Source: [Phormidium] sp. LEGE 05292 (GTDB lineage: Bacteria; Cyanobacteriota; Cyanobacteriia; Cyanobacteriales; Aerosakkonemataceae). From it: a DNA stretch of 36,820 bases. The position numbers and the translations under genes were made by a program. Under the pieces are notes generated by a model. The model saw only the letters and a list, made by a program, of their open reading frames with translations, ran no database searches and had not been told where the DNA came from. Location: contig NZ_JADEWG010000064.1 of NCBI RefSeq assembly GCF_015207735.1, positions 1 to 36,820 on the forward strand. Reading direction: 5' to 3'. Of the stretch, positions 5,819 through 18,274 are shown in pieces. The first letter of the stretch is position 1, and each line of letters begins with the position of its first letter.

Positions 5819-5896
5819 TTAACCCGTATAGGTGGAAATTAACATTACTAAACTAAATCCAAGCACGCAAAGTAGTATGAAGTCCAGTTTTTTCAT
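5819..5896 (-). CDS. Candidate 25-aa single-span membrane protein
   Basis: A 25-codon frame starts 35 nt after the stop of the ABC ATPase gene on the same strand. It reads MKKLDFILLCVLGFSLVMLI then STYTG. Two lysines precede about 17 hydrophobic residues, the layout of a minimal membrane-span protein. It does not match the small photosystem or cytochrome b6f subunits I know. There is no clear ribosome-binding site, so it may depend on read-through translation from the ATPase gene or may not be expressed. Confidence 0.35.
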   Translation of the reverse strand: MKKLDFILLCVLGFSLVMLISTYTG

Positions 5897-5931
5897 ATTG
5901 ATTTTTGGGTTATGGAGGATTTGCGATCGCT

Positions 5932-6711
5932 CTAAATACTATCAGAATTTTCAGATTTAGATTGATTGAAAAAAGGTAAACACTGTAAAAATTGTTTTAC
6001 TTCTTTTTGTTCTGATTTTAAAAACTCCGAAGCAGTATCTATTAATAACATTTTTCCTGATTCCATTAACCCAATTCTTGATGCTAATACAAAAGCTTCT
6101 TGAATGTCATGGGTGACAAAAACCACCGTTTTTCCCAACTGTTTTTGGAGTTGACGAAACTCTTTTTGAATTTCAATTCTAGTAATGGGATCGAGTGCGC
6201 CAAAAGGTTCATCCATTAATAATAAAGGTGGGTCAGCTGCGAGGGCACGGGCTACGCCAACTCGCTGACGTTGACCGCCGGATAATTCATCTGGATATCT
6301 GTGGGCAAATTGTTTCGGGTCGAGTCCGACAAGTTGTAAAAGTTGATTTACTCTTTGGGAAATGCGATCGCGCTTCCACCCCTCCAAACTAGGTACTAAT
6401 CCTACATTTTTAGCAATAGTAAAATGAGGAAATAACCCCGTTTCTTGAATCACATAACCAATACTTCGCCGCAATTTAATCGGGTTCCATTCAGTAGTAG
6501 AAATTCCCTCTACCCGCACTTCCCCACTACTAGGAGTCAGCAACCGATTAATTAATTTCATAGTTGTAGTTTTCCCACAACCACTGCGTCCTAGTAATAC
6601 CAAAATTTCTCCCCGTTGCACTGTGAAATTGAGGTTAGATACTAAAGGTCGATCGTTAAGTAAATAAGCGACATTGTGAAATTCAACAGCTATTTCGTTA
6701 TCCTGTACCAT
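5932..6711 (-). CDS. ABC transporter ATP-binding protein, glycine betaine/choline type (OpuCA/ProV-like)
   Basis: 259 aa. It has a full set of nucleotide-binding motifs: Walker A GRSGCGKTT (41-49), Q-loop VIQETGLFPH, signature LSGGQRQRVGVARAL, Walker B LLLMDEPFGALD and H-loop FVTHD. The ETGLFPHFTIAKNV segment and the SIGYVIQ context are typical of the OpuCA/ProV osmoprotectant importers. It lacks the C-terminal CBS domains that sense ionic strength in OpuA/ProV; the tail is short and polar. No permease or substrate-binding gene is adjacent, so its partner must lie elsewhere. It is divergent from the antitoxin-like gene at 6776. Confidence 0.88.
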   Translation of the reverse strand: MVQDNEIAVEFHNVAYLLNDRPLVSNLNFTVQRGEILVLLGRSGCGKTTTMKLINRLLTPSSGEVRVEGISTTEWNPIKLRRSIGYVIQETGLFPHFTIAKNVGLVPSLEGWKRDRISQRVNQLLQLVGLDPKQFAHRYPDELSGGQRQRVGVARALAADPPLLLMDEPFGALDPITRIEIQKEFRQLQKQLGKTVVFVTHDIQEAFVLASRIGLMESGKMLLIDTASEFLKSEQKEVKQFLQCLPFFNQSKSENSDSI

Positions 6712-6775
6712 GAGAGATGCTCAATTTTAGGACTAATTTTACTATATTTGAAATATACGGTTAGGAGGAACTATT

Positions 6776-7000
6776 GTGAAAACTATTACTACTATCGCTA
6801 CAGTAACACCAGATGGCAAAGTTACCCTACAACTACCAGCAGATATTACCCCAGGAGAACATCAAGTAGTATTGGTGATTGATGAAAATATCAAGACAGA
6901 GAAGCCGGAAACAAAGAAAGAACGATCGCCTTTAGATTTTCCGGTACATGATGTAGGCCCTTGGCCTGCGAATCTTTCTTTAAGACGTGAGGATATATGA
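6776..7000 (+). CDS. Antitoxin-like small protein (toxin partner missing)
   Basis: 74 aa from GTG 6776, supported by an AGGAGG site 7 nt upstream. The N-terminus (MKTITTIATVTPDGKVTLQL, PADITPGEHQVVLVID) resembles a β-rich AbrB-like DNA-binding module. The tail LDFPVHDVGPWPANLSLRRED matches small cyanobacterial antitoxins that usually precede a PIN toxin gene (from memory of the family). Here the frame stops two codons after RRE, and no PIN gene follows: the next genes are on the other strand. It looks like an orphan antitoxin with a clipped C-terminus. The name rests on sequence resemblance only. Confidence 0.62.
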   Translation: MKTITTIATVTPDGKVTLQLPADITPGEHQVVLVIDENIKTEKPETKKERSPLDFPVHDVGPWPANLSLRREDI

Positions 7001-7027
7001 ATTTTTGTTTGCGTTCCCGATGAAAAA

Positions 7028-7420
7028 TTAAGGTCGCCACACAATTTGAGATTGTCTTGCTAATAAATCTGCAAGTCTCCTAGCTGTAGCTGGATTTTCT
7101 TGCATATTTGGTAAACCTACAATATTTGCATGAGATGTTGAATCAGGTACAACATCTAAATCCAATTCACGAATGCGACCTACTTGAAGACTAGCGACAC
7201 CGTAACAATTTCTGAATCTGGCTGCACTTTGCTGAGGAGTACAAGCACTAGCAATGTTCACAGAAAGACTTTGTTCATTTTGCCTCAACAAGTAAGCCGA
7301 AAATTTGATCTCCCCTGTTTCCCAATCTACCCATTGTTTACGAAGTAATGCCCGATAAACTATGGCATTATCTGGTAATTGTTCAAACTCCGAAGCACCA
7401 TCATAAGATTGTTCTGTCAT
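7028..7420 (-). CDS. Unknown protein, second gene of a coupled pair
   Basis: 130 aa, soluble, no recognised family. Visible segments are an N-terminal acidic region, AIVYRALLRKQWVDWETGEI, an Ala/Cys-rich stretch (VNIASACTPQQSAARF), CYGVASLQVGRIRELDLDVV, and a C-terminal helix AARRLADLLARQSQ. Its ATG overlaps the stop of the upstream gene by 4 nt (ATGA), so the two are translationally coupled and probably work together. The short, coupled layout would suit a toxin-antitoxin or small accessory module, but no catalytic residues are obvious. Confidence 0.72.
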   Translation of the reverse strand: MTEQSYDGASEFEQLPDNAIVYRALLRKQWVDWETGEIKFSAYLLRQNEQSLSVNIASACTPQQSAARFRNCYGVASLQVGRIRELDLDVVPDSTSHANIVGLPNMQENPATARRLADLLARQSQIVWRP

Positions 7421-7827
7421 GCTTCGTTAAACCACTGTAACCAATGAATTAATCTTGAAGAAGACACTTCATAATCTACAGCATAATCTTCAGCTTTTTG
7501 ATGATAAATGTGAGCTTTTTTTTCAGAATTTGCTGGACAGAATAAATGAATAGTGCAATCTTTATCTCGGTTTAACCATTCGAGAGTAATTCCGCCAAAT
7601 TCATCTGTGGAAACCCAAGCTTTAGGAAAGCTATTACCCATGATTTCATACGCCTCTAAAACTAAATTCATCACTGTCTTAAAAGCGTAGTCCGTTGGCT
7701 GCAAAACCCCATAATCATCTTCTGCTTCTAAATCTAAAAGTTCCAAAATTCTTTTCACAGTAATAGTAAAGTTAGAAAACTCTCTGTGACTACTGCTATC
7801 AGAAAGTATATCCTTGGATAAAGCCAT
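7417..7827 (-). CDS. Unknown protein, first gene of a coupled pair
   Basis: 136 aa, acidic and soluble. The middle is helix-rich (ITVKRILELLDLEAEDDYG; TVMNLVLEAYEIMG). The C-terminal half reads like a β-sheet domain (KAWVSTDEFGGITLEWLNRD; CTIHLFCPANSEKKAHIYHQ) ending in a Trp-rich helix. The GGITLEW and HIYHQ pattern resembles small proteins of cyanobacterial two-gene modules, but I cannot name the family. The start is about 110 bp from the divergent helicase gene, and the two could share a regulatory region. Confidence 0.72.
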   Translation of the reverse strand: MALSKDILSDSSSHREFSNFTITVKRILELLDLEAEDDYGVLQPTDYAFKTVMNLVLEAYEIMGNSFPKAWVSTDEFGGITLEWLNRDKDCTIHLFCPANSEKKAHIYHQKAEDYAVDYEVSSSRLIHWLQWFNEA

Positions 7828-7935
7828 AGAAATACCTGAACTCTTACAAAGAATAGGATAACACAGACAAAATTAGTTACAAATTGCCCCTAAACACCTA
7901 AAATTAACGAGGGGAATCACACTTTTAGATAATCA

Positions 7936-9564
7936 ATGCCTCGTACTCCTACTTTAACTTTCGATCGCGGCACCTTAATTCTGCATCCACCACCGAGAGG
8001 CAAAAGCTGGGTGGAATTCGCCACTTGGGATGACAGAGTAGAAAAATTTCGCATTCCGGCTATTCATTACCGTCCTTTGGTAGAAGCTTTGCAAGCAGAA
8101 GGAATTAACTTTATTGATGAGGCAAAAGAATTTGTACCTCTGCAATTAGTTCCAAGTTTAGAAATGGAACCTTACCCTCATCAAAGTGAAGCTTTGGAGG
8201 CTTGGAAATTAGCAGGAAGAATGGGAGTTGTTGTGCTTCCAACTGCTGCGGGAAAAACTTATTTGGCACAATTGGCAATGCAAGCAACGCCACGCAGCAC
8301 ATTAATTGTAGTACCAACTTTGGATTTAATGCACCAATGGTATGCACATTTAGTGGCGGCTTTTCCTGATGCAGAAGTTGGTTTATTAGGAGGTGGATCG
8401 AGGGATAAAAGTCAAATTCTTGTGGCTACTTATGATAGTGCGGCTATTAATGCGGAAAGTTTAGGAAATCGCTATGCTTTGTTAATTTTTGATGAGTGCC
8501 ATCATTTACCAACGGAATTTTATCGGGTAATTGCAGAATTTGCGATCGCACCCTATCGTTTAGGACTTTCCGCAACTCCAGAAAGAACCGATGGTAAACA
8601 TAAGGAATTAGACCTTTTAATTGGCACAGAAGTTTACCGCAAAACTCCTGAAGAATTAGCCGGAAAAGCTTTGGCAGACCATCAAATTATTCCGATTAAA
8701 GTCAAGTTATCTCAACAAGAAAGGGAAAGATACAATGAATTAATCAAAATTCGCAATGACTTTTTGAAGGCGGAAAAAATTCAGTTGGTAAGTCTGGAAG
8801 GTTGGCAAAGATTTGTGATGGTGAGTGCGCGATCGCCAGCCGGAAGACGTGCTATGTTAGCTCATAGAGAAGCTAGGGAAATTGCGATCGGAACTGAGGG
8901 AAAAATTCGCGTTTTAGCTGATTTATTAGCGGAACATTTTCCAGAACGAATTTTGATATTTACTACGGATAATGCTACAGTTTATCGGATTTCTCAAGAG
9001 TTTTTAATTCCCGCGATTACTTATCAAACTCCTGTTAAGGAAAGACACGAAATTTTAACTTGTTTTAAGCAGGGAGAATATAAAAGTTTGGTGGCTTCTC
9101 ACGTTTTAAATGAAGGGGTTGATGTTCCTGCGGCTAGTATTGCAATTATTCTTTCTGGTACTGCTTCGCCAAGGGAATATATTCAAAGATTGGGGCGAAT
9201 TTTGCGTAAGGGGGGAGATAATAATAAGCGGGCAATTTTGTATGAGGTGGTGACGGAAGATACTAGTGAGGAAAGGGTTTCTCAGCGGAGAAAGGGAGAG
9301 GAATTTGAACCGCAGAGACGCAGAGGACGCACAGAGGAGGAAAAGGAGAAGTTTGTTCAGTTGGAACTTTTGCCTTCTGAACCGATTTATAAGGTTGCTG
9401 AATCGACAGAAATAAAAGTTGATGATGCGGTAAAGAATCAGGGAAAATCAGAGATAAGTTATTCCAAGGAAAGTCGGAAATCTAAGAAAAAAAATGTTAC
9501 CAAGCGAGTTGCTGATTCATCGTCAAAATGGGGAGTCGATAATCCCGAAACGCCTGAAGATTGA
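7936..9564 (+). CDS. XPB/Rad25-like superfamily 2 DNA helicase
   Basis: 542 aa. An N-terminal damage-recognition-like domain (~1-75) precedes two RecA-like helicase lobes. Motif Q-like YPHQSEALEAW, motif I PTAAGKT (102-108), motif II DECHH (186-190), motif III SAT (212-214) and motif VI QRLGRILRKG (417-426) are all present, and the core ends near residue 440. Archaeal XPB pairs with the nuclease Bax1 to unwind and cut damaged DNA; here a Bax1-like gene overlaps the 3' end. The last ~100 residues are a charged, probably disordered tail that contains an in-frame copy of a dispersed repeat (nt ~9280-9345). The final 71 nt overlap the next gene in another frame. A role in repair or defence is inference from the partner family. 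Confidence 0.9.
   Translation: MPRTPTLTFDRGTLILHPPPRGKSWVEFATWDDRVEKFRIPAIHYRPLVEALQAEGINFIDEAKEFVPLQLVPSLEMEPYPHQSEALEAWKLAGRMGVVVLPTAAGKTYLAQLAMQATPRSTLIVVPTLDLMHQWYAHLVAAFPDAEVGLLGGGSRDKSQILVATYDSAAINAESLGNRYALLIFDECHHLPTEFYRVIAEFAIAPYRLGLSATPERTDGKHKELDLLIGTEVYRKTPEELAGKALADHQIIPIKVKLSQQERERYNELIKIRNDFLKAEKIQLVSLEGWQRFVMVSARSPAGRRAMLAHREAREIAIGTEGKIRVLADLLAEHFPERILIFTTDNATVYRISQEFLIPAITYQTPVKERHEILTCFKQGEYKSLVASHVLNEGVDVPAASIAIILSGTASPREYIQRLGRILRKGGDNNKRAILYEVVTEDTSEERVSQRRKGEEFEPQRRRGRTEEEKEKFVQLELLPSEPIYKVAESTEIKVDDAVKNQGKSEISYSKESRKSKKKNVTKRVADSSSKWGVDNPETPED
9280..9345 (+). repeat. In-frame dispersed repeat within the helicase tail
   Basis: The core GAACCGCAGAGACGCAGAGG (9307-9326) followed by ACGCACAGAGG is a familiar cyanobacterial intergenic repeat. 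Here it is translated as an Arg/Glu/Gln-rich segment (about residues 449-471) just after the helicase core, without breaking the frame. That it arrived by insertion is inference. Confidence 0.6.
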
Positions 9565-10708
9565 TGACAAGAATTTGGAGATTGCGACGGATTTAATTAG
9601 TTGTTTTGAAGAGAATGTTGGGAAAACTCAAGGTGAGTTGGATAAGCAACTTTTGGAGATGGAAGGCGATAGTCCAGATTATCGGTTAAAGCGGGGTTTT
9701 GCTCATTTATTGAAGAGTAGTTTTTCTACTTTTGAAATTGTTAGTCCTCTGGAACCGCAAGAATTACGTCAGCGAGTTTTTACTTTATCTGCACAATCAA
9801 TCCCTAATCCTTTGGCATCTCAAAGAGTGTTGAATAATTTGGCAGATCAACTAAGTCAGGAATTAAATAAAGAGGTTTCTTCCCAACAAATTCGCACTGG
9901 TTTATATGCAGATTTACAGGAAAATCGGATTTTAACTCAGTTCGATCCTCCAGCACCAGAAGATATCATCCATCGTTATAATATTTCGCAAGTGCAAGGA
10001 GTTTTTTATCGCGCTAGTCAAATTATCATTAATGCTCATCGTAATGTTCCAGGTGAGTATAAATTGCTGTTTCGTTATTTAAAATTGTTTCAATTAATGG
10101 CTTATATTGAAGGTGATGCCGATCATGGTTTTACTATTACAATTGATGGGCCAACTAGTTTATTTAAAGCTAGCACAAGATATGGATTGGCGATCGCAAA
10201 ACTCATCCCCGCACTTTTGCACGTTACCAAATGGAGTCTCAGCGCCACTTTACAAACAAAAGACATCTACAGTGGTAAGCAAAAAACTGGCAGATTTACT
10301 CTTAATTCTGATTGTGGTTTAGTCACTCATTATCCCCCAGGAAAACCTTACGATAGTATGTTAGAAGCTGGCTTTGCTAATCGTTGGGATTCCCTAAAAA
10401 CTGATTGGGTTTTAGAAAGAGAAGTTGACTTAATTCCCATTCCCGGAAGTGTGATGATTCCCGATTTTCGCCTAGTTCATCCCGATGGCAGAAGTTACTT
10501 ATTAGAAATAGTTGGTTACTGGCGACCAGAATATTTACAAAAGAAATTTGCCCAAGCAAGAAAAGCTGAATGTGACAATTTGATCTTGGCAGTTTCGGAA
10601 AGATTGAATTTAGAAAAAGCTGGAGTTAAAGTCAGTAATACTCCAGCAAAAATTGTTTGGTTTAAAGATAAACTTTCACCCAAAGCAGTGTTAGAAGTTC
10701 TAGAATAA
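9494..10708 (+). CDS. Bax1-like nuclease (DUF790 family), partner of the XPB helicase
   Basis: 404 aa. It begins MLPSELL, a typical DUF790 start, which supports the start inside the helicase gene (71-nt overlap). The C-terminal part carries a PD-(D/E)XK-like site: P323-D324-F in MIPDFRLVHPDGR and E338-I-V in LLEIVGYWRPEYLQKKF, the most conserved block of the family. In archaea, Bax1 is a structure-specific nuclease that binds XPB and cuts near the bubble edge. The N-terminal half contributes helicase contacts in those systems. The overlap with the helicase gene suggests coupled synthesis of a complex. The biological role in cyanobacteria is not established to my knowledge. Confidence 0.9.
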   Translation: MLPSELLIHRQNGESIIPKRLKIDDKNLEIATDLISCFEENVGKTQGELDKQLLEMEGDSPDYRLKRGFAHLLKSSFSTFEIVSPLEPQELRQRVFTLSAQSIPNPLASQRVLNNLADQLSQELNKEVSSQQIRTGLYADLQENRILTQFDPPAPEDIIHRYNISQVQGVFYRASQIIINAHRNVPGEYKLLFRYLKLFQLMAYIEGDADHGFTITIDGPTSLFKASTRYGLAIAKLIPALLHVTKWSLSATLQTKDIYSGKQKTGRFTLNSDCGLVTHYPPGKPYDSMLEAGFANRWDSLKTDWVLEREVDLIPIPGSVMIPDFRLVHPDGRSYLLEIVGYWRPEYLQKKFAQARKAECDNLILAVSERLNLEKAGVKVSNTPAKIVWFKDKLSPKAVLEVLE

Positions 10709-10738
10709 ATTGCATAAATGAAATATTTGGAGGTTGCA

Positions 10739-11299
10739 ATGCCATTACAATTGTTAAGACGGAAATTTACAGTAAAGCAGTACCATCAAATGGTTGAAGC
10801 TGGTATTTTGACAGAAAATGACCGAGTAGAATTAATTAAGGGAGAAATTGTTGAAATGACACCAATTGGTAGAAGACACGCTGCTTATGTTGCTCGTTTT
10901 GTTCAATTATTGATAATTCGTTTGGGACAAAGAGCAATTATTTGGCCACAAAATCCCATAGAACTAGATGATACTTCTGAGCCTCAGCCAGATGTAACAT
11001 TATTGCAACCTCGTACCGATTTTTATGAGTCAGGACATCCACAACCACAGGACATTCTATTAATAATAGAAGTGGCAGATACGACAGTAGAAAGCGACAG
11101 AGAAATCAAAATCCCTCTCTATGCCGAAAACGGTATTATTGAAGTTTGGTTAGTGGATATTAATGAACAATGTATTGAAGTTTATCGGGAACCTTCACCA
11201 AATGGTTATCAAAATATCCAAAGATTCGTGCGAGGGCAAAATTTATCGATACTCGCTTTTCCTGAAATTATTATAAGTGTAGATGAAGTATTGGGATAA
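10739..11299 (+). CDS. Uma2 family endonuclease (DUF820), copy 1
   Basis: 186 aa from the ATG at 10739, chosen because a GGAGG site lies 5 nt upstream; the frame is open to 10718. Uma2 proteins have a PD-(D/E)XK restriction-endonuclease-like fold. Candidate active-site residues are E36 (KGEIVEM), D85 (SEPQPD), E111 (LIIEVAD) and K124 (DREIKIPLYA), followed by the family signature YAENGIIEVWLVD. Many cyanobacteria carry dozens of copies, and their substrates and biological role are poorly known. A second copy follows 27 bp downstream of this stop, so the two are likely co-transcribed. Confidence 0.9.
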   Translation: MPLQLLRRKFTVKQYHQMVEAGILTENDRVELIKGEIVEMTPIGRRHAAYVARFVQLLIIRLGQRAIIWPQNPIELDDTSEPQPDVTLLQPRTDFYESGHPQPQDILLIIEVADTTVESDREIKIPLYAENGIIEVWLVDINEQCIEVYREPSPNGYQNIQRFVRGQNLSILAFPEIIISVDEVLG

Positions 11300-11326
11300 A
11301 GTTAATATCAACAATTGGAGGTAGAA

Positions 11327-11887
11327 ATGTCTGTGCAATTATTGAGACGAAAATTTACAGTAACACAGTATCACCAAATGGTTGAAGCTGGTATTTTGAC
11401 AGAAGACGATCGAGTGGAATTAATTCGAGGAGAAATTGTTGAAATGACACCAATTAATAGAAGACATTCAGCCCATGTCAATCGTTTAAATGAGTTATTT
11501 ATTTTACGTTTGGCGCAGTTGGTAACAGTAGGAGTACAAAATCCAGTAGAATTAAATGATAGTTCTGAACCACAACCAGATATATCATTATTGCGACGAA
11601 AAGCTGATTTTTATGAATCAGGACATCCCCAACCAGAGGATATTTTGTTATTAGTGGAAGTGGCAGATACGACGGTGGAAAGCGATCGACAAATCAAAAT
11701 CCCCCTATATGCCGAAAACGGTATTATTGAAGTTTGGTTAATAGATATTAACGAGCAATGTATTGAAGTTTATCGGCAACCTTCACCCGATGGTTATCAG
11801 AATATGCAGAGGTTTGTGCGAGGGCAAAGTTTATCTATATTGGCTTTTCCTGAAATTATTATAAGTGTAGATGAAGTATTGGGATAA
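11327..11887 (+). CDS. Uma2 family endonuclease (DUF820), copy 2
   Basis: 186 aa. The start at ATG 11327 has GGAGG 6 nt upstream. It is a tandem duplicate of the preceding gene: about 39 of 186 residues differ by eye, with no gaps. Most differences fall between residues 44 and 110, while the N-terminal ~40 and the C-terminal ~75 are nearly identical, including the final FPEIIISVDEVLG. All four candidate catalytic residues (E36, D85, E111, K124) are kept. The middle region that diverges may set substrate or partner specificity, which is inference. Confidence 0.9.
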   Translation: MSVQLLRRKFTVTQYHQMVEAGILTEDDRVELIRGEIVEMTPINRRHSAHVNRLNELFILRLAQLVTVGVQNPVELNDSSEPQPDISLLRRKADFYESGHPQPEDILLLVEVADTTVESDRQIKIPLYAENGIIEVWLIDINEQCIEVYRQPSPDGYQNMQRFVRGQSLSILAFPEIIISVDEVLG

Positions 11888-12221
11888 AGATAATTTTATG
11901 TATGTAGAGACTTTGTATACAACGTCTCTACTTTATTGTGTTCCGAATCAGAGATAACCTACTTATTTAATCAGCAAGATGGCAGGGTAGAAAATTAGAA
12001 CTATTTTCTTCTCTTGCTAAAGCTTATTTCATAATTTATTAATTTGAGTAAATAATTTAAGTAGTAACACTGATGCGAATAAAAGTAAATAATCAAATAA
12101 TAAAAAAGTATAGATGAAAATAAATAACATTCTTTGACTGTTGTGGCAATTAATCAAGCCTGAAAAGTCTCGTATGAACTGTTTCTCTGGTTAATGCGTA
12201 ATAAAACAAAGGAAAGAATCG
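11888..12221. other. AT-rich gap between Uma2 and the motor genes
   Basis: 334 bp without a gene. It starts with a hairpin element (11904-11931) that may end the Uma2 transcript. The remainder is AT-rich and presumably carries the promoter for the motor pair; no convincing -35/-10 pair was found. An AAGGAAAG site stands 6 nt before ATG 12222. Confidence 0.5.
11904..11931. repeat. GTAGAGAC inverted repeat
   Basis: Perfect 8-bp arms GTAGAGAC and GTCTCTAC enclose 12 nt. The same GTAGAGACGTTG-type palindrome is common between genes in cyanobacteria. It may also act as a terminator for the Uma2 operon. Confidence 0.65.
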
Positions 12222-13820
12222 ATGATTGATGACTTTTTAGAAGTAATTTGGCAGAACAGTTTATTCCATTGGGTAACTTTGGTGTTGTTGATGTTCGCCT
12301 GCTTAATTGAGTTGTACTCAACAGTAATGTACATTTGGAAATTAAAAAGCAGTATTACAAGGGAAGCGATCGACTATTTATCAAAAAGCCTAAAAACTGT
12401 GACAGTAAGCGGCAAAGAAACAGTTTCTTTGGATTATAAAAATATTCCTAAAGATAATCGAATAAAAATATTTAATTGGTTTAGCAAACATCTGGCTGGA
12501 AGAGAATTAAACGATACTTTTATAGCACAATTACAGTATGGACGCTTCGTGCTTTTACAGTATCCGGTAATTCTGGAAAAGCCAGTACCTCGTAGTTCTT
12601 TGCGCTTTATTCAAAGCATACTGATTGCGATCGGAGTTTTGGGAACTTTTTACGGCATTCAAGTAGGACTAAGCGGCATTTCTTTAAGCGATATTGGAGA
12701 AAATAGCGGACACTTACTCAAGTCAAGCGTTCAACTACTAGAAGGGATGAAAACCGCTTTTTCTACCTCACTAATGGGATTGGGATCTTCCAGTATTTTC
12801 ACATTAATTTTAGCTTGTTTGGAGTGGGTAAGAAAAAAGTATCGAGATAGCCTGAAAAACAAATTAGACACAATTACTCTATTAGAAACACCGATGCGAT
12901 TGCTTGAGAGAATTAATCCTGAAGCAAATTTGAAAGCTTCTCAAGCACTTGCCAATGCTGCGGAAATAATGGGAGCGAAATTTGCTGAATTGATAGAAAT
13001 TCAGCGAGAATTAAGCCCGAAAGCGATCGGACAAGAAATAGGAAGTGTCATCAAACCTGTGTTTGAAGAAATCAGAGTCGAACTAACAGCATTGCGAGAA
13101 ATCAAGGCAGATCAAGGTCAAGAAATATTGAAAAATTTAATCAAAGAACAGCGCGAACAGTTAATTAAACCAATTATTAGCGAATTAAGTAATAGCGCCT
13201 ATCTCACAAAACAAGCTTCGGAAACTGTTATGGATTTGAAAAATGAATTAGGGAGTATTGCTCTCAGCTTATCAGAATCGATCGCTACCATCGAGCATTT
13301 TCAAGCACAAACTCTGGTCAAACTTCAACAATTTGCCACCAATTTCGGAGATAATGTAGAAAAAACATCTGTTACTTTTATAGGAATTCGTGAAGAATTA
13401 GAAAATTCTCTCAACAATCACTTGGAAATCCAACAGCAATTAGTTCAGGAATTTCAAAACAACATTCATGAAATTTTTGTTGAACAAAATAACAACCTTG
13501 AAAAATTAGGGGAACAAACTTCTGAAGCAATGCGTATACAGCGTGATGCACTGACTAAAATTGCTAAACAAACAGTTAATACTTTTATAGGTATTCGGGA
13601 AGAACTAGAACAATCTTTGCAAACTCAAGCACAAACAGAACGGGAGTTACTTCAAGAATTTCAAAATCGTTCCCTGGAAATTTTTGAGCGCCAAGCTAAT
13701 AATTTGACTCTAGTTGGAAACGCAGCTTCTCAACAGATGAATGAAGCAACGGAAAAACTTTGTCACCAATTATTACAAGCTGCTGAAAATACTCGGAAAT
13801 TTAATCAAGGCGAAAATTAA
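12222..13820 (+). CDS. ZorA-like MotA/ExbB-type proton channel with long cytoplasmic tail
   Basis: 532 aa. One transmembrane segment lies near the N-terminus (about 14-37), then a soluble stretch. Two more segments, IQSILIAIGVLGTFYGIQVG (about 130-150) and FSTSLMGLGSSSIFTLILAC (about 178-198), form the MotA/TolQ/ExbB channel core with the characteristic GTFYG motif. From ~205 to the end it is a long helical tail rich in Glu, Gln and Leu, the architecture of ZorA in Zorya anti-phage systems. The tail ends in two tandem 69-residue repeats, 385-453 and 454-522, each starting TFIGIREELE. ZorA is usually somewhat longer. The stop is 2 nt before the ZorB-like start. No ZorC, ZorD, ZorE or other known Zorya partner lies next to it. 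A MotA-like motor for another purpose is the alternative. Confidence 0.8.
   Translation: MIDDFLEVIWQNSLFHWVTLVLLMFACLIELYSTVMYIWKLKSSITREAIDYLSKSLKTVTVSGKETVSLDYKNIPKDNRIKIFNWFSKHLAGRELNDTFIAQLQYGRFVLLQYPVILEKPVPRSSLRFIQSILIAIGVLGTFYGIQVGLSGISLSDIGENSGHLLKSSVQLLEGMKTAFSTSLMGLGSSSIFTLILACLEWVRKKYRDSLKNKLDTITLLETPMRLLERINPEANLKASQALANAAEIMGAKFAELIEIQRELSPKAIGQEIGSVIKPVFEEIRVELTALREIKADQGQEILKNLIKEQREQLIKPIISELSNSAYLTKQASETVMDLKNELGSIALSLSESIATIEHFQAQTLVKLQQFATNFGDNVEKTSVTFIGIREELENSLNNHLEIQQQLVQEFQNNIHEIFVEQNNNLEKLGEQTSEAMRIQRDALTKIAKQTVNTFIGIREELEQSLQTQAQTERELLQEFQNRSLEIFERQANNLTLVGNAASQQMNEATEKLCHQLLQAAENTRKFNQGEN
13374..13787 (+). repeat. Tandem 69-codon repeat in the ZorA-like tail
   Basis: Residues 385-453 and 454-522 align without gaps. 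Shared landmarks are TFIGIREELE, LVQEFQN against LLQEFQN, and EIF.EQ.NNL against EIFERQANNL. The duplicated unit lies in the predicted coiled-coil tail, so it would lengthen the tail by about 100 Å if fully helical (1.5 Å per residue). Confidence 0.8.
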
Positions 13821-13822
13821 TT

Positions 13823-14491
13823 ATGTTTAATTTTAATGACCTAAAACAGCAAGTAGACCTAGACGAAGAAGAATCGAGCGTTTTGCTGTCAATTGGTGAT
13901 TTGATGTCAGGGCTACTGATGATTTTTGCCCTTCTATTCGTTACAGTTATTGTTCAGCTAAAAGACCGAGAAGAACCGCGTCGAGTTGTAATTGGTACGG
14001 TTGTTGAACAGATGAAAGGTAATAATATTAACGTAAAAGTTAACGCTGAAACTGGCGATGTAAGCATTCAGGATAAGATTCTTTTTGATGAGAATAGTGC
14101 TGAATTAAAACCCGCCGGGAAGATGTTTCTTAAACAATTTATTCCGGTTTACAGTCGCATTATTTTTTCCAAAAAAGACTTTAAAAGCGAGATTGCTAGA
14201 GTAGTTATTGAAGGACATACTAGCTCGAAAGGAGATTATGATAGTAACTTGGAACTAAGCTTATTACGATCGCTTGCTGTGTCTAAATTCATCTTTTCCA
14301 ATGAGTTGAATTTTCCCACAAAGTCGGAATTGAGAACGAAAATTATGGCAGCAGGTCGCGGCGAGATGGAAGCAAAGCAAGAAGAAGATGCTCCGAGCGA
14401 TCGCAAAGTCATCTTTCGCTTCCAATTTCGCGGCGAAAACTTCTCAGAATGGTATCGAAAAAACCAGTCTTTACCAGCAAAAAAACCATAA
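13823..14491 (+). CDS. ZorB-like MotB/OmpA-type stator protein
   Basis: 222 aa. A short cytoplasmic N-terminus leads into one transmembrane helix (about 24-43, SIGDLMSGLLMIFALLFVTV). It carries Asp26, the position of the proton-binding aspartate in MotB/ZorB-type subunits. A periplasmic OmpA-like peptidoglycan-binding domain follows (~85-205): DKILFDENSAELKPAG, VVIEGHTSSKGDYDSN and LELSLLRSLAVSKFI. The usual Asp after GHT is Ser here, while the Asn and Arg of the binding motif are kept. Together with the preceding gene it should form a proton-driven rotary complex anchored to the cell wall. The pair is tightly linked (2-nt gap). Confidence 0.82.
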   Translation: MFNFNDLKQQVDLDEEESSVLLSIGDLMSGLLMIFALLFVTVIVQLKDREEPRRVVIGTVVEQMKGNNINVKVNAETGDVSIQDKILFDENSAELKPAGKMFLKQFIPVYSRIIFSKKDFKSEIARVVIEGHTSSKGDYDSNLELSLLRSLAVSKFIFSNELNFPTKSELRTKIMAAGRGEMEAKQEEDAPSDRKVIFRFQFRGENFSEWYRKNQSLPAKKP

Positions 14492-14502
14492 AATTTCAGC
14501 TT

Positions 14503-14820
14503 ATGTCCCCCCCTTTTGAAGGAGGGAACTGGATGGGTATTTCGGTTTTTTGCTACAGATTAGATCCCCCCTAACCCCCCTTATTAAGGGGGGAACTGGA
14601 TGGGTATTTTCTGTTTTTTGCTACAGATTAGATCCCCCCTAACCCCCCTTAACAAGGGGGGAACTGGATGGGTATTTCTGTTTTTTGCTACAGATTAGAT
14701 CCCCCCTAACCCCCCTACCCTTCGGGAAGGCTACGCCTATAACAAGGGGGGAACTGGATTCAGGATTAAAAGTCCCCCTTATTAAGGGGGATTTAGGGGG
14801 ATCGTAAACTTGTGTGTACA
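14503..14820. repeat. 67-68 bp tandem repeats carrying GATCCCCCCTAACCCCCC palindromes
   Basis: Unit starts (GATCCCCCC) at 14563, 14631 and 14698 give periods of 68 and 67 bp, preceded by a partial unit. Each holds a strong hairpin such as CCCCCCTTATTAAGGGGGG and the spacer GGAACTGGATGGGTATTT. The third copy has 24 extra bases inside the hairpin (14717-14740). A shorter relative with CCCCCTTATTAAGGGGG ends the block. The hairpins separate the convergent motor and FGE genes and could stop transcription from both sides. Confidence 0.85.
14717..14740. mobile_element. 24-bp insertion nested in a repeat palindrome
   Basis: Compared with its sister units, the third copy has CCTTCGGGAAGGCTACGCC inserted between the two arms of the C6/G6 hairpin. 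This string is itself a recurrent cyanobacterial short repeat and contains its own small hairpin (CCTTCGGGAAGG). Confidence 0.5.
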
Positions 14821-14835
14821 CAGTCGCCTTAAAAA

Positions 14836-14921
14836 AGAGGATTTTATGTTAAGAAAAAACTAAACAAAAAATTTTTTAGCACTTTGCGCCGGGAAAAAAA
14901 GGATAAAAATATAAAGCGGCT
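14836..14921 (-). promoter_or_regulatory. IMH-like 3' flank of the first FGE gene
   Basis: On the minus strand, the bases after the stop read AGCCGCTTTATA, a pyrimidine-rich tract, then CCCGGCGCAAAGTGC and T runs. The flank of the second FGE gene has the same order of elements (AGCCTCTTTATA, pyrimidine tract, CCCTGCGCGAAGGAC). DGR targets carry an initiation-of-mutagenic-homing site at the 3' end of the variable region. Equating this flank with that site is inference. Confidence 0.45.
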
Positions 14922-15047
14922 CTAAGTTGATGCCGCAGCACAGACAACTCGAAAACCGATCGCACCGTTACGCACACCCGGCAGGTTGAGGAAGCGAAAA
15001 GCCGATCGACAGCGGTCAGGAGCATTGAGCCACGAACCACCGCGCAG
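14922..15047 (-). other. Candidate DGR variable region 1
   Basis: This is the last 126 nt of the gene, equal in length to candidate region 2. Both begin CTGCGCGGTGGTTCGTGG and end ACTTAGAGCC. Between them 24 codons differ, mostly at first and second positions, while the upstream coding sequence stays closely matched. The frame of fixed residues (P, C.SA.R, GF) with swaps between them is the known pattern of adenine-directed DGR diversification. Confidence 0.65.
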
Positions 15048-15881
15048 CAGCCTTCTTGAGCTTTCTTCCCTAGATAACCATGCACTGCCATCAATGGGTG
15101 CTCCTGTATAATTATCATGCCAATGGTCAGCACACCATTCCCAAACATTGCCGTGCATATCATAAAGTCCAAAAGCATTGGGGGGAAAAGTACCAACTTC
15201 TGTAGTTTGCTCTCGATAAATTCCCTTGCGACTAAAAGCGTAGGTTTGGTTGCCGTTATAATTTGCTAAATCAGGGCTGATAGTTTCGCCAAAATGAAAG
15301 GCTGAAGTAGTCCCCGCACGACAGGCATATTCCCACTCTGCCTCACTAGGCAACCGATAATTTCGCCCAGTTTTCTGGGACAGTCGCGCACAAAACTCCA
15401 CCGCCTCATACCACGACACTATCTCTACCGGAAGATTTGCACCTTTGAATTTAGATGGGTCAGGATTGAGGTCAATTTTGACTTTGGGAAAACCTGCCAC
15501 TGTGCGCCATTCTGCTTGTGTAACCGGAAACTTACCCATGAAAAAAGGTTTTATTCTAACTGAATGCTGTGGCTTTTCAGTCTCTAAGAATTTCGATTTA
15601 TTAATTGGTGAACCCATCACGAATGTGCCATCGGGAATGGCAACCATTTCTAGAATTACCCCATTCCCCAAGTCTTCAATAAAAAATTCTGCTTCTTGAC
15701 GACTGTGTTTAATCTTGCGAGCGATTTCTTCACCTAATCCAAGCCATCGGAAATTTCTTTTGATTATGATAGTCGCAGTTTCAAATTCAAACGTCTGTTT
15801 TTGAATTTTCATCTCTGACTTAGGAGTTGTGGAAAAGTTAGCTGTTTGTTGTGGCTTAAATGCTATTTCTCTGTTATTCAT
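14922..15881 (-). CDS. FGE-sulfatase (SUMF1) domain protein with DGR-type variable C-terminus, copy 1
   Basis: 319 aa. A ~75-residue N-terminal extension (with FEFETATI) precedes the formylglycine-generating-enzyme-type, C-type-lectin-like fold. Landmarks are GTFVMGSPI, GKFPVTQAEWRTV, VEIVSWYEAVEFC, RLPSEAEWEYACRAG, FGLYDMHGNVWEWCADHWH and RGGSW...GFRVVC. True FGE enzymes activate sulfatases, but cyanobacterial stand-alone copies of this fold are frequent variable proteins of DGRs. The last 42 codons (LRGGSW to stop, 14922-15047) are where this protein and the copy at 17321 differ most. An AGGGGTGA site precedes ATG 15881; the Met at residue 24 aligns with the start of copy 2. No reverse transcriptase is in the window. 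Confidence 0.88.
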   Translation of the reverse strand: MNNREIAFKPQQTANFSTTPKSEMKIQKQTFEFETATIIIKRNFRWLGLGEEIARKIKHSRQEAEFFIEDLGNGVILEMVAIPDGTFVMGSPINKSKFLETEKPQHSVRIKPFFMGKFPVTQAEWRTVAGFPKVKIDLNPDPSKFKGANLPVEIVSWYEAVEFCARLSQKTGRNYRLPSEAEWEYACRAGTTSAFHFGETISPDLANYNGNQTYAFSRKGIYREQTTEVGTFPPNAFGLYDMHGNVWEWCADHWHDNYTGAPIDGSAWLSREESSRRLLRGGSWLNAPDRCRSAFRFLNLPGVRNGAIGFRVVCAAAST

Positions 15882-16170
15882 ACTGCTTCACCCCTAAATA
15901 AATCCTAGATTCTACGATCGCACTAACAAATCAGGAAAATACGGGTGCTAAATAATTGCCTTTTTTGGCGATCGCACAGCCTAGCTTTTTTGCTGGGATG
16001 GGCGATCGCCTTCCCCAGACAAATTCTCCTTCTAATTAATTTAATAACCTGCCAATACTCTTGGTTCTAAAGCAACAAATTTTTCCCTCAATTCTGACAC
16101 AGAAACTACACAACAGAGAAGTTTACAGTTACTATTAAATAATTGTCTAAACTCTTCTTTGTACGCTCAA
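15882..16170. other. Gap with a coding fragment upstream of FGE copy 1
   Basis: 290 bp hold two or three GCGATCGC octamers (15969-16010) and the stop-containing end of an old minus-strand reading frame (16041-16166). No intact gene was found. Confidence 0.45.
16041..16166 (-). pseudogene. Broken gene end truncated at the tandem array
   Basis: An open minus-strand frame of 41 codons without a start codon reads like real protein: AYKEEFRQLFNSNCKLLCCV, then VSVSELREKFVALEPRVLAG and Y before a TAA. Its upstream boundary (in-frame TGA at 16167-16169) coincides with the edge of the 105-bp repeat array. It is best read as the 3' remnant of a gene cut by the repeats. The family is unknown. Confidence 0.4.
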
Positions 16171-16672
16171 TAAATCTCTCACCTACTTGATAAACAAAAA
16201 TTCCTGTCCCCCCCTTATTAAGGGGGGTTAGGGGGGATCAAATGCCATCATCAAATTACCAAAACCTCCACCTAATAAATCTCTCACTTACTTGATAAAC
16301 AAAAATTCCTGTCCCCCCCTTATTAAGGGGGGTTAGGGGGGATCAAATGCCATCATCAAATCACCAAAACCTCCACCTACTTGATAAACAAAAATTCCTG
16401 TCCCCCCCTTATTAAGGGGGGCTAGGGGGGATCAAATGCCATCATCAAATCACCAAAACCTCCACCTAATAAATCTCTCACCTACTTGATAAACAAAAAT
16501 TCCTGTCCCCCCCTTATTAAGGGGGGTTAGGGGGGATCAAATGCCATCATCAAATTACCAAAACCTCCACCTAATAAATCTCTCACTTACTTGATAAACA
16601 AAAATTCCTGTCCCCCCCTTATTAAGGGGGGTTAGGGGGGATCAAATGCCATCATCAAATTACCAAAACCTC
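16171..16672 (+). repeat. Five-copy 105-bp tandem array carrying a gene start
   Basis: The landmark TTGATAAAC recurs at 16187, 16292, 16381, 16486 and 16591. That gives periods of 105, 89, 105 and 105; the third copy lacks 16 bp. Each unit holds a C7/G6 palindrome (CCCCCCCTTATTAAGGGGGG), TTAGGGGGGATCAA, and then ATGCCATCATCAAAT. The ATG positions are 16242, 16347, 16436, 16541 and 16646. The last is the start of the DUF559 gene; the other four open 17-codon or shorter frames that stop in the next unit. There are no unique spacers, so it is not CRISPR. Confidence 0.9.
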
Positions 16673-17044
16673 AACAAAACCGATTTTCACCTACCCTACA
16701 AACCCCAACTAGTAGAAAGAGCAAAAGAACTTCGCCAAAACCCAACACCCGCAGAAAAAAAGCTTTGGCAAAATTACCTCAGAACCTTTAAATTTCGAGT
16801 TTTACGTCAGCGACCAATAGATAATTTTATTGTTGATTTTTACTGCGCTGCATTGAAGTTAGTAATTGAAGTTGATGGAGAAAGTCATTTTACTGATGAA
16901 GGTCAGGAATATGACCGAGAAAGAACCCAAATATTAGAAGGATATGGGTTGAAAGTTGTGAGATTTACCAACGATCGAGTGTTGAATAATTTTGAGTTTG
17001 TTTGTGAGGAAATTGAGGGTTTGATCCCCCCTAACCCCCCTTAA
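16646..17044 (+). CDS. DUF559 (Vsr-like) endonuclease
   Basis: 132 aa. This family has the very-short-patch-repair endonuclease fold. Visible motifs are AKELRQNPTPAEKKLWQNYL (~26-45), FKFRVLRQRPIDNFIVDFYC with D64, IEVDGESH with E75, D77 and H81, and LKVVRFTNDRV near the C-terminus. Single-domain DUF559 proteins are common in cyanobacteria and are suspected mobile or repair nucleases; no specific role is known. The first ~10 codons come from the last unit of the tandem array, with TTAGGGGGG as the only ribosome-binding candidate. The final residues (IPPNPP) and stop come from the next palindromic repeat. Both gene ends are therefore supplied by repeats. Confidence 0.85.
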   Translation: MPSSNYQNLNKTDFHLPYKPQLVERAKELRQNPTPAEKKLWQNYLRTFKFRVLRQRPIDNFIVDFYCAALKLVIEVDGESHFTDEGQEYDRERTQILEGYGLKVVRFTNDRVLNNFEFVCEEIEGLIPPNPP

Positions 17045-17210
17045 TAAGGGGGGGAATATATTCAAATTCTCTGATTTTTCCAGAGATTAGATCCCCCCTA
17101 ACCCCCCTTAATAAGGGGGGAACCGGATTCAAGATTTAAATTTCCCCTTTTTAATAAAAAATTGAATTCAAAGTCCCCCTTATTAAGGGGGATTTAGGGC
17201 GATCGCCAAC
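17023..17210. repeat. Palindromic repeats between DUF559 and FGE copy 2
   Basis: GATCCCCCC units at 17023 and 17090 (period 67) with C6/G6 hairpins are of the same family as the array at 14503. A shorter CCCCCTTATTAAGGGGG hairpin follows (about 17175-17191). The first unit supplies the end of the DUF559 gene. Confidence 0.8.
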
Positions 17211-17215
17211 TTGTG

Positions 17216-17320
17216 CCTAAAAGGTTTTATTTTCAAAAAAAACAAAAAAACTTTTTAAGTCCTTCGCGCAGGGAAAAGAAAAGAGGGAAAAGGGCAAAAG
17301 GGTTAAAGTATAAAGAGGCT
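17216..17320 (-). promoter_or_regulatory. IMH-like 3' flank of the second FGE gene
   Basis: After the stop, the minus strand runs AGCCTCTTTATACTTTAACC, a long pyrimidine tract (CCCTTTTGCCCTTTTCCC), CCCTGCGCGAAGGAC and T runs. This parallels the flank of copy 1 element by element. Its function as a mutagenic-homing start is inference from DGR architecture. Confidence 0.45.
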
Positions 17321-17446
17321 CTAAGTCCACTCCGCACTACACACAAGACGAAAACCGAAAGAGTTGTTAACAAGGTCCGCAAAGCCGTTGCTGCGACAAG
17401 CCGAACGACAGAAATCAGGAAAGGAGTACCACGAACCACCGCGCAG
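17321..17446 (-). other. Candidate DGR variable region 2
   Basis: 126 nt, the same length and frame as region 1. The swapped residues relative to copy 1 include L/Y, N/S, A/F, R/F, F/C, F/S, L/N, N/G, L/F, G/D, V/L, R/V and G/N, set between fixed P, CRSA, R and GFR. In a DGR the template would carry adenines (often AAC) at these codons. No such template is present in the window. Confidence 0.65.
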
Positions 17447-18187
17447 CCGCCTCGATGAAGTTTCATCACTAGATAACCATATACTCCCATCGTTAGGTGC
17501 GCCATCATAATTTTCATGCCAATGGTCAGCACACCATTCCCAAACATTGCCGTGCATATCGTAAAGCCCAAACGCATTAGCGGGAAAACTGCCAACTTCT
17601 GTAGTTTGCTCTCGATAAATTCCCTGAGAACCTGAAGCGTAGACAAAGTTGCCATCGTAATTGGCTAAATCGGTTGTAATTGTTTCGCCAAAATGAAAAG
17701 GCGTTGTAGTTCCCGCACGACACGCATATTCCCACTCTGCCTCACTCGGCAACCGATAATTTCGCCCGGTTTTCTGGGATAGTCTTTCGCAAAACTCCAC
17801 CGCCTCATACCAGGACACTTGCTCTACCGGACGATTTGCACCTTTGAAATGAGACGGGTCAGGATTGAGATCAATTTTGACTTTGGGAAAACCTGCGACT
17901 GTTTGCCATTGCGCTTGCGTAACCAGAAACTTACCCATCAAAAAGGGTTTTATCGTCACTGAATGCTGTGGCTCTTCACCATCTGATGATTCTGGCTCAT
18001 CAGTTGACGAACCCATCAGGAATGTGCCACCAGGAATGGCAACCATTTCCAGAATTACCCCATTCCCCAAGTCTTCAGCAAAAAATTCTGCTTGTTTACG
18101 ACCGCGTTTGATTTCGTAAGCAATGTCTTCACCTTTTTTGACAACAGAAATAGTTGCCGTCTCAAAATCAAAAGCCTGTTTTTGCAT
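17321..18187 (-). CDS. FGE-sulfatase (SUMF1) domain protein with DGR-type variable C-terminus, copy 2
   Basis: 288 aa. It lacks the N-terminal 24-residue extension of copy 1 and starts MQKQAFDFETATISVV. The fold landmarks are the same: GTFLMGSSTDE, GKFLVTQAQWQTV, VEQVSWYEAVEFC, RLPSEAEWEYACRAG and HGNVWEWCADHWH. From ~90 to ~245 it is very close to copy 1, and stretches of about 40 nt are identical at DNA level. From LRGGSW (residue 248) onward it diverges sharply. The likely role is a ligand-binding display domain rather than a sulfatase-activating enzyme. No clear ribosome-binding site precedes the ATG. Confidence 0.87.
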   Translation of the reverse strand: MQKQAFDFETATISVVKKGEDIAYEIKRGRKQAEFFAEDLGNGVILEMVAIPGGTFLMGSSTDEPESSDGEEPQHSVTIKPFLMGKFLVTQAQWQTVAGFPKVKIDLNPDPSHFKGANRPVEQVSWYEAVEFCERLSQKTGRNYRLPSEAEWEYACRAGTTTPFHFGETITTDLANYDGNFVYASGSQGIYREQTTEVGSFPANAFGLYDMHGNVWEWCADHWHENYDGAPNDGSIWLSSDETSSRRLRGGSWYSFPDFCRSACRSNGFADLVNNSFGFRLVCSAEWT

Positions 18188-18274
18188 ATTAAATGTGTTT
18201 GGGGTTTCAATTTATTAGAGTAGCTATGCTTGATAATATCAAACTTACCGATTAACAACCCACCCCTAATAATT

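Follow-up and report, generated by a model that had tools for sequence, protein, structure and literature searches.

Mutagenic retrohoming by diversity-generating retroelements (DGRs) resets the non-adenine sites of a target gene to the template, and template adenines are replaced by random bases. One of the closest described systems to the locus analysed here is all3226 of Nostoc PCC 7120, a remnant paralogue of a DGR variable protein, for which the sections of Vallota-Eastman 2020 (PMC7517822) dealing with it suggest that the diversification parts were removed once a variant had been selected. Like the two genes of this study, all3226 shows a CLec module, remnant homology to a template tail and no adjacent reverse transcriptase (RT). 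However, PCC 7120 keeps two DGRs elsewhere according to the same sections (PMC7517822), unlike the host genome studied here and nine other genomes of its family, in which none was found. Remote cyanobacterial DGR targets, as treated in the relevant parts of PMC7517822 and PMC8867640, resemble our genes in their fold, their 3′-terminal tail and their presence in several copies per genome, but have a related template and an RT in their own genome. Similarly, loci 1, 3, 4, 5 and 7 of Thiohalocapsa PB-PSB1, which are incomplete or candidate remote (Dore 2024, PMC10907252), have targets that lack a full cassette of their own, and the portion of that article covering DGR 1 gives it no current variation. 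There, in contrast to the present locus, most of the variation is attributed to other DGRs of that genome or to intact structural variants found in the population (PMC10907252). Finally, the plasmid pANA02 of Anabaena sp. 90 carries RT, avd, template and FGE targets together, a cassette absent from the organism studied here, while a degraded cassette with only the RT is described for the Anabaena sp. 90 genome in the sections cited above (PMC7517822).

Two FGE-fold genes with variable ends

The window, that is, the whole stretch of DNA that was analysed, is one entire contig (C296, 36,820 bp) of the 7.5 Mb draft genome of [Phormidium] sp. LEGE 05292, which comprises 351 contigs with a completeness of 99.96%. 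The preliminary description of the window had reported two FGE-fold genes with in-frame ends of equal length and fixed borders, and this was confirmed. On the minus strand, the last 126 nt of both genes (14922-15047 in P0001 and 17321-17446 in P0002) share the borders CTGCGCGGTGGTTCGTGG and ACTTAGAGCC and differ at 24 of 42 codons. Both proteins present a C-type-lectin/FGE-type module with the variable region at the C-terminus, as DGR targets do (Table 1). The PF03781 fold is shared with FGE/PvdO/SUMF1 proteins (PDB 5hha, PvdO, E 2.3e-42), and P0002 matched, among structures of the FGE fold, the DGR variable protein of Treponema. Ordinary FGE proteins have a catalytic copper-binding cysteine pair.

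Table 1. Coordinates of the two genes, their variable-region cores and their 3′ flanks in the window
Feature	Coordinates	Strand	Remarks
P0001, stand-alone FGE-sulfatase/C-type-lectin-fold protein, 319 aa	14922..15881	(-)	Pfam PF03781, E 6.1e-62
P0002, stand-alone FGE-sulfatase/C-type-lectin-fold protein, 288 aa	17321..18187	(-)	Pfam PF03781, E 1.3e-57; PDB 2y3c, E 1e-25
P0001 variable-region core, 36 codons	14940..15047	(-)	10 departures from the family third-position consensus; more decayed
P0002 variable-region core, 36 codons	17339..17446	(-)	5 departures; nearer the family template
P0001 3′ flank, degenerate copy of the DGR-target flank	14850..14921	(-)	Hairpin remnant at ~14877-14893
P0002 3′ flank, DGR-target type (AGCCTCTTTATACT...CCCTTTTGCCCTTTTCCC...)	17240..17320	(-)	Hairpin remnant at ~17258-17273, predicted to fold poorly

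For the site counts, the core was taken as the 36 codons LRGGSW..GFRxVC and the body as the 215 aligned codons upstream. At codon positions 1 and 2, 26 of 72 sites differed between P0001 and P0002 in the core, compared to 50 of 430 in the body. However, FGE paralogue pairs classed as non-target also preferred the same sites at these positions, so that a preference for first and second positions does not by itself show a DGR. Likewise, the coincidence of the window differences with template adenines (P-values of 1.5e-11 for the best of ten equal-length templates and 3.9e-4 for the weakest) was dropped as proof of a DGR, since the same coincidence was found at the first two codon positions in FGE pairs assigned to the non-target group (e.g. 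26/30 vs. 3/42). This shared preference would suit the alternative that P0001 and P0002 are ordinary FGE-fold paralogues that never were DGR targets, with a fast surface loop under relaxed or diversifying selection, which is considered distinctly unlikely in view of the divergence patterns and flanks presented below.

Search for the RT, the template and Avd in the host genome

Two checks proposed in the preliminary description, namely a genome-wide search for a DGR RT and another for an adenine-rich template, were run on the draft assembly. Pfam RVT_1 matched two genes, neither of them DGR-type: a group II intron maturase at C214 (motif TPQGGVFSP; RVT_N and GIIM domains) and a retron-type RT at C301 (G000:C301:6143-6781, locus L002; motif LPQGAPTSP; PADLOC RT_XIII, E 9.6e-199). 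Moreover, the DGR RT of a relative (motif LPIGNLTSQ), used as query, had no match in the host genome at E ≤ 1e-5. A template was deduced mechanically by placing an A at every site where the window tails differ; a search of the host genome with it yielded no template, the matches besides the tails themselves being the C278 FGE gene (E 0.019) and eight short stretches (E 0.86 or worse). As a positive control, the same query found DGR templates on plasmids, the best being that of pANA02 (81% over 113 nt, E 8e-22), and is therefore able to recognise a real template. The pANA02 template also matched a family template at 91% over 112 nt, the latter having been composed by eye with the templates of other genera in view, hence not blind. 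Avd is an accessory protein usual in DGRs, albeit not universal; its family gave a single match in the host draft, at C162 and under the curated cutoff, and neither avd nor RT traces were detected in the window by tblastn (E ≤ 0.05). Active targeting is thus supported by neither a DGR RT nor a template in the draft assembly, the very result that the preliminary description had named as contrary to its reading. Since the draft consists of 351 contigs, a plasmid-borne writer (RT, template RNA and Avd) could be missing from it, and a writer on a plasmid absent from the assemblies is possible.

The same searches bear on gene conversion among FGE paralogues, by which tails would be shuffled without any RT. 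Recombination would be conceivable, as a genome has several FGE genes whose borders are alike; nonetheless, no donor was found, as the tails matched at the DNA level each other and, weakly, C278 (with the E-value given above) among the four FGE genes of the genome. Furthermore, conversion would import third positions and whole blocks rather than changes concentrated at template-adenine sites, and it is regarded as highly improbable.

Outside the host genome, no DGR RT was found in viral contigs with a query that reaches close relatives only, and all DGR RT matches in phage records were <60% identical. One viral contig had a template-like 18-mer. In the one congeneric genome examined, no close relative of P0001 or P0002 appeared, the best body identity being 0.724.

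Divergence at third codon positions and at adenine sites

The statement of the preliminary description that changes sit mostly at first and second codon positions held as a count over the 42 codons (30 of 42 nucleotide changes), but the other 12 fell at position 3, where the tail core differed at the same rate as the body (10/36 vs. 54/215; Fisher P-value of 0.84), pointing to old drift. In RT-linked target pairs, only 9 of 331 third positions differed in the tails versus 707 of 1,821 in the bodies (nine pairs from seven RT-bearing loci, these being the 7 out of 14 control loci that carry a DGR RT themselves and offer two or more usable targets), and the window tail was unlike those tails (P-value of 1.2e-6). 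All these statistics assume independence between sites, certain pooled pairs have genes in common, and several comparisons preceded the best P-values quoted. In the control loci whose retrieved stretch contained no RT, the third-position counts of the tails were 0-2 (Leptothoe), 9 (Scytonematopsis), 10-12 (Leptolyngbya cf. ectocarpi) and 12 (Cyanocohniella).

Regarding selection, the Nei-Gojobori estimates for the window pair were pS 0.36 and pN 0.32 in the tail, and pS 0.33 and pN 0.12 in the body, with dN/dS values of 0.86 and 0.29, respectively. The tail value, not above 1 overall, would fit paralogues that never were targets, as would the finding of no DGR part in the host genome. However, an ordinary FGE tail would be constrained and diverge mainly at silent sites, as observed in the yardstick FGE orthologues C278/C12 (tail dN/dS of 0.03), and the window tails differ from FGE/PvdO/SUMF1 proteins in this respect. 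Moreover, 24 of the 30 adenine sites of the pANA02 template (positions 1 and 2) differed in the window pair, compared to 46 of 141 synonymous sites of the body (P-value of 2.5e-6), so that adenine sites changed faster than silent ones, which argues against the same alternative. With this plasmid template as a stand-in for the missing one, 10 of 76 non-A sites also differed between the window tails, whereas active targets would have identical non-A sites. Two different templates could also yield the third-position and non-A differences. Taken together, the counts suggest that template-adenine sites changed fast at some time and that a long silence has followed.

At the ten third positions that differ between the tails, P0002 has the consensus base at six and P0001 at one, while the 54 differences in the body are nearly even (consensus base in 19 vs. 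15 cases); for this reason, the P0002 tail was probably the last to be written. Furthermore, this tail differs at 4-5 of 36 third positions from the tails of other species and at 10 from that of its sister P0001, and being closer to the former, it may date from a round of writing that followed the duplication.

Membership in the DGR-target class

A third-position consensus was built from 18 target-type tails of the family, excluding the window genes; which FGE ends counted as target-type and which did not was our own choice. Departures from this consensus, out of 36, ranged from 1 to 11 in those 18 tails, where the window genes also fall (Table 1), and from 13 to 22 in ten other FGE genes. The latter were chosen by us for contrast: four within-genus conserved orthologues (L007, L050, L240 and L241), two genes conserved between genera and four selected by their divergent ends. 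In the comparison of P0002 with the target G001_L020_1, 5 of 36 third positions differed in the tail and 100 of 171 in the bodies (P-value of 6e-7, the best of about 20 comparisons), whereas the ten other FGE genes gave a P-value of 0.01 at best in this contrast. A likeness to other target tails so far in excess of that of the bodies is hard to reconcile with genes that never were targets.

The noncoding flank past the stop codon also speaks against that alternative. In both genes it comprises CTTTATA, followed by a CCCTTTTGCCCTTTTCCC-like tract, the position of a GC hairpin and a run of A/T; the pattern is clear in P0002 but degenerate in P0001. Under a lenient pattern, and with loci classed as RT-bearing by RT motif, this DGR-type flank was present behind 29 of the 30 targets with an RT on their locus and behind 50 of the 99 remaining FGE-type ends, while shuffled stretches showed it in 2% of cases; it was not seen behind the FGE gene of the genome at C278. 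A downstream hairpin/cruciform is needed for retrohoming in BPP-1, according to the part of PMC3240598 that reports it. The stems of both window genes are degenerate and predicted to fold poorly; yet among the 30 targets of RT-bearing loci, a perfect stem of at least 5 bp was present in only 16, so that hairpin decay carries little weight. Altogether, fold, third-position pattern and 3′ flank support that both proteins belong to the cyanobacterial DGR-target class. The preliminary inference that both are targets therefore stands as far as the class is concerned, while an active local display repertoire is not supported, given the silent drift and the lack of a writer in the searches.

DGR components across the host family

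The family was surveyed in draft assemblies, with one genome per species. At E ≤ 1e-30, the DGR RT query matched 9 of the 60 genomes searched (host included), with identities of 59-68% in the eight besides its own, and none of the ten host-family genomes. The weaker RT matches of the family, whose loci were scanned by motif, were QG..SP-type RTs, and no recognisable template was found in any of the ten genomes. Nevertheless, target-type tails were present in all ten (20 of 30 FGE ends, by our classing). Behind six of these targets (one each in G003, G005 and G009, and three in G007), the start of avd was kept but cut to 21-80 residues, with no RT trace beside it in the 12-13 kb read per locus. 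No avd remnant was detected in the other six of the 12 stretches searched, the window among them, and an avd-like start with a stop was seen by eye behind a target of G004. A narrow check of the literature, covering titles and the beginnings of abstracts, yielded nothing on a whole cyanobacterial family with targets and without an RT.

In genus g3, G007 and G003 share one avd cut and have bodies 92% identical, with tails that differ (12, 9 and 6 of 36 by codon position); given the identical cut, both loci probably descend from one already broken cassette. On the other hand, two G007 genes differ at 0 of 36 third positions in the tail versus 59 of 215 in the body, and a G003 tail and that of a different G007 gene also differ at 0 of 36, versus 80 of 214 in the bodies. 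No DGR RT was found in either assembly, both 99% complete. These counts suggest that a template shared by both species wrote the tails in trans after the local cassette broke, and the missing writer would be explained by its loss in both G003 and G007 or by its location on a plasmid left out of the assemblies.

The alternative that a DGR acting in trans still diversifies the window tails, from a plasmid or another element missing from the host and nine other family assemblies, draws on these g3 tails. In addition, RT genes with 62-71% identity to the query, over 90% of its length, lie next to FGE-type targets on five cyanobacterial plasmids; on that of Fischerella, the targets bear the annotation hypothetical and were identified from their tails. 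Moreover, G008 shares a tail with the public MAG UBA11372, MAGs tending to lose plasmids. Even so, it is held to be unlikely, as the window pair shows old rather than recent writing, an RT or template was found in none of the ten family assemblies and, with little weight, the window hairpins fold poorly.

Two further observations were made in these genomes. The probably orthologous FGE genes G009 L231 and G005 L237 come from different genera and yet have near-identical tails (in 36 codons, 2 changes at positions 1 and 2 taken together, and 5 at position 3), which is probably a frozen tail in genomes whose other tails vary. Moreover, full-length Avd matches were found in G043:C65 (E 5.0e-39) and G057:C287 (E 3.1e-35), without a DGR RT there at E ≤ 1e-30, and RT loss may not be limited to the host family.

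Genomic surroundings

At 12222-14491 (+), the window carries two genes of the Zorya defence system, one ZorA1-like (E 4.4e-134) and the other ZorB1-like (E 4.2e-74). The matches listed for the seven remaining proteins of the window that were scanned included no ZorC, ZorD or ZorE model, those listed for the helicase at 7936-9564 being its best 25 of 32, with PbeA first. The region 5826-18243 (~12.4 kb), including ZorAB and both FGE genes, had no blastn match in the syntenic locus L267 of the congeneric G001, whose blocks match its flanks, one of them inverted; it looks like a lineage-specific island. Tandem arrays of 67-bp units (14508-14716) and of about 105/194-bp units (16169-16672) are built around CCCCCCTTATTAAGGGGGG-type palindromes, and a DUF559 gene (16646-17044) lies beside the arrays, between P0001 and P0002.

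Discussion

The term retired DGR target is used here for a gene with a DGR-template-type tail, no writer found and silent drift like that of the rest of the gene, and P0001 and P0002 show all three features. We consider it probable that they are such retired, orphaned targets and not an active display repertoire. This rests on the observed homology, the silent-site clock, the finding of no writer in the draft assembly and the decayed avd behind the targets of relatives, and from them we infer the following order of events. The last ~36 codons of an ancestral gene would have been written by mutagenic retrohoming; the gene would then have been duplicated, the copies having their adenine sites rewritten at about that time or later, with P0002 staying nearer to the template than P0001. 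Subsequently, the writer would have vanished from the lineage, after which the scaffold would have remained under purifying selection and the tails drifted at the silent rate of the rest of the genes. Judging from the fold and the purifying selection on the body, the proteins would still work as fixed ligand-binding modules.

A related scenario, regarded as unlikely, is that the receptor genes of the host family stay chromosomal while the writer is a transient plasmid-borne visitor, which alters them in trans before disappearing again, the lineage alternating between writing and fixed phases. If so, its trace would be seen in the G003 and G007 tails, apparently rewritten from a common template at a time when the RT and most of avd were already gone from their own cassette.

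On balance, the window pair is best explained as retired targets, that is, members of a known DGR-target class kept by selection and no longer written, with precedents in all3226 and the incomplete Thiohalocapsa loci as presented in the sections of PMC7517822 and PMC10907252 referred to above. A hypervariable tail resembling that of a DGR target is thus no proof of an active DGR, and the comparison of third codon positions between tail and body offers a simple sequence test separating current from retired targets. Finally, if the ten family members truly lack the writer, they would provide a natural series on the fate of a receptor repertoire once hypermutation stops, in which it could be asked whether writers come and go on plasmids.
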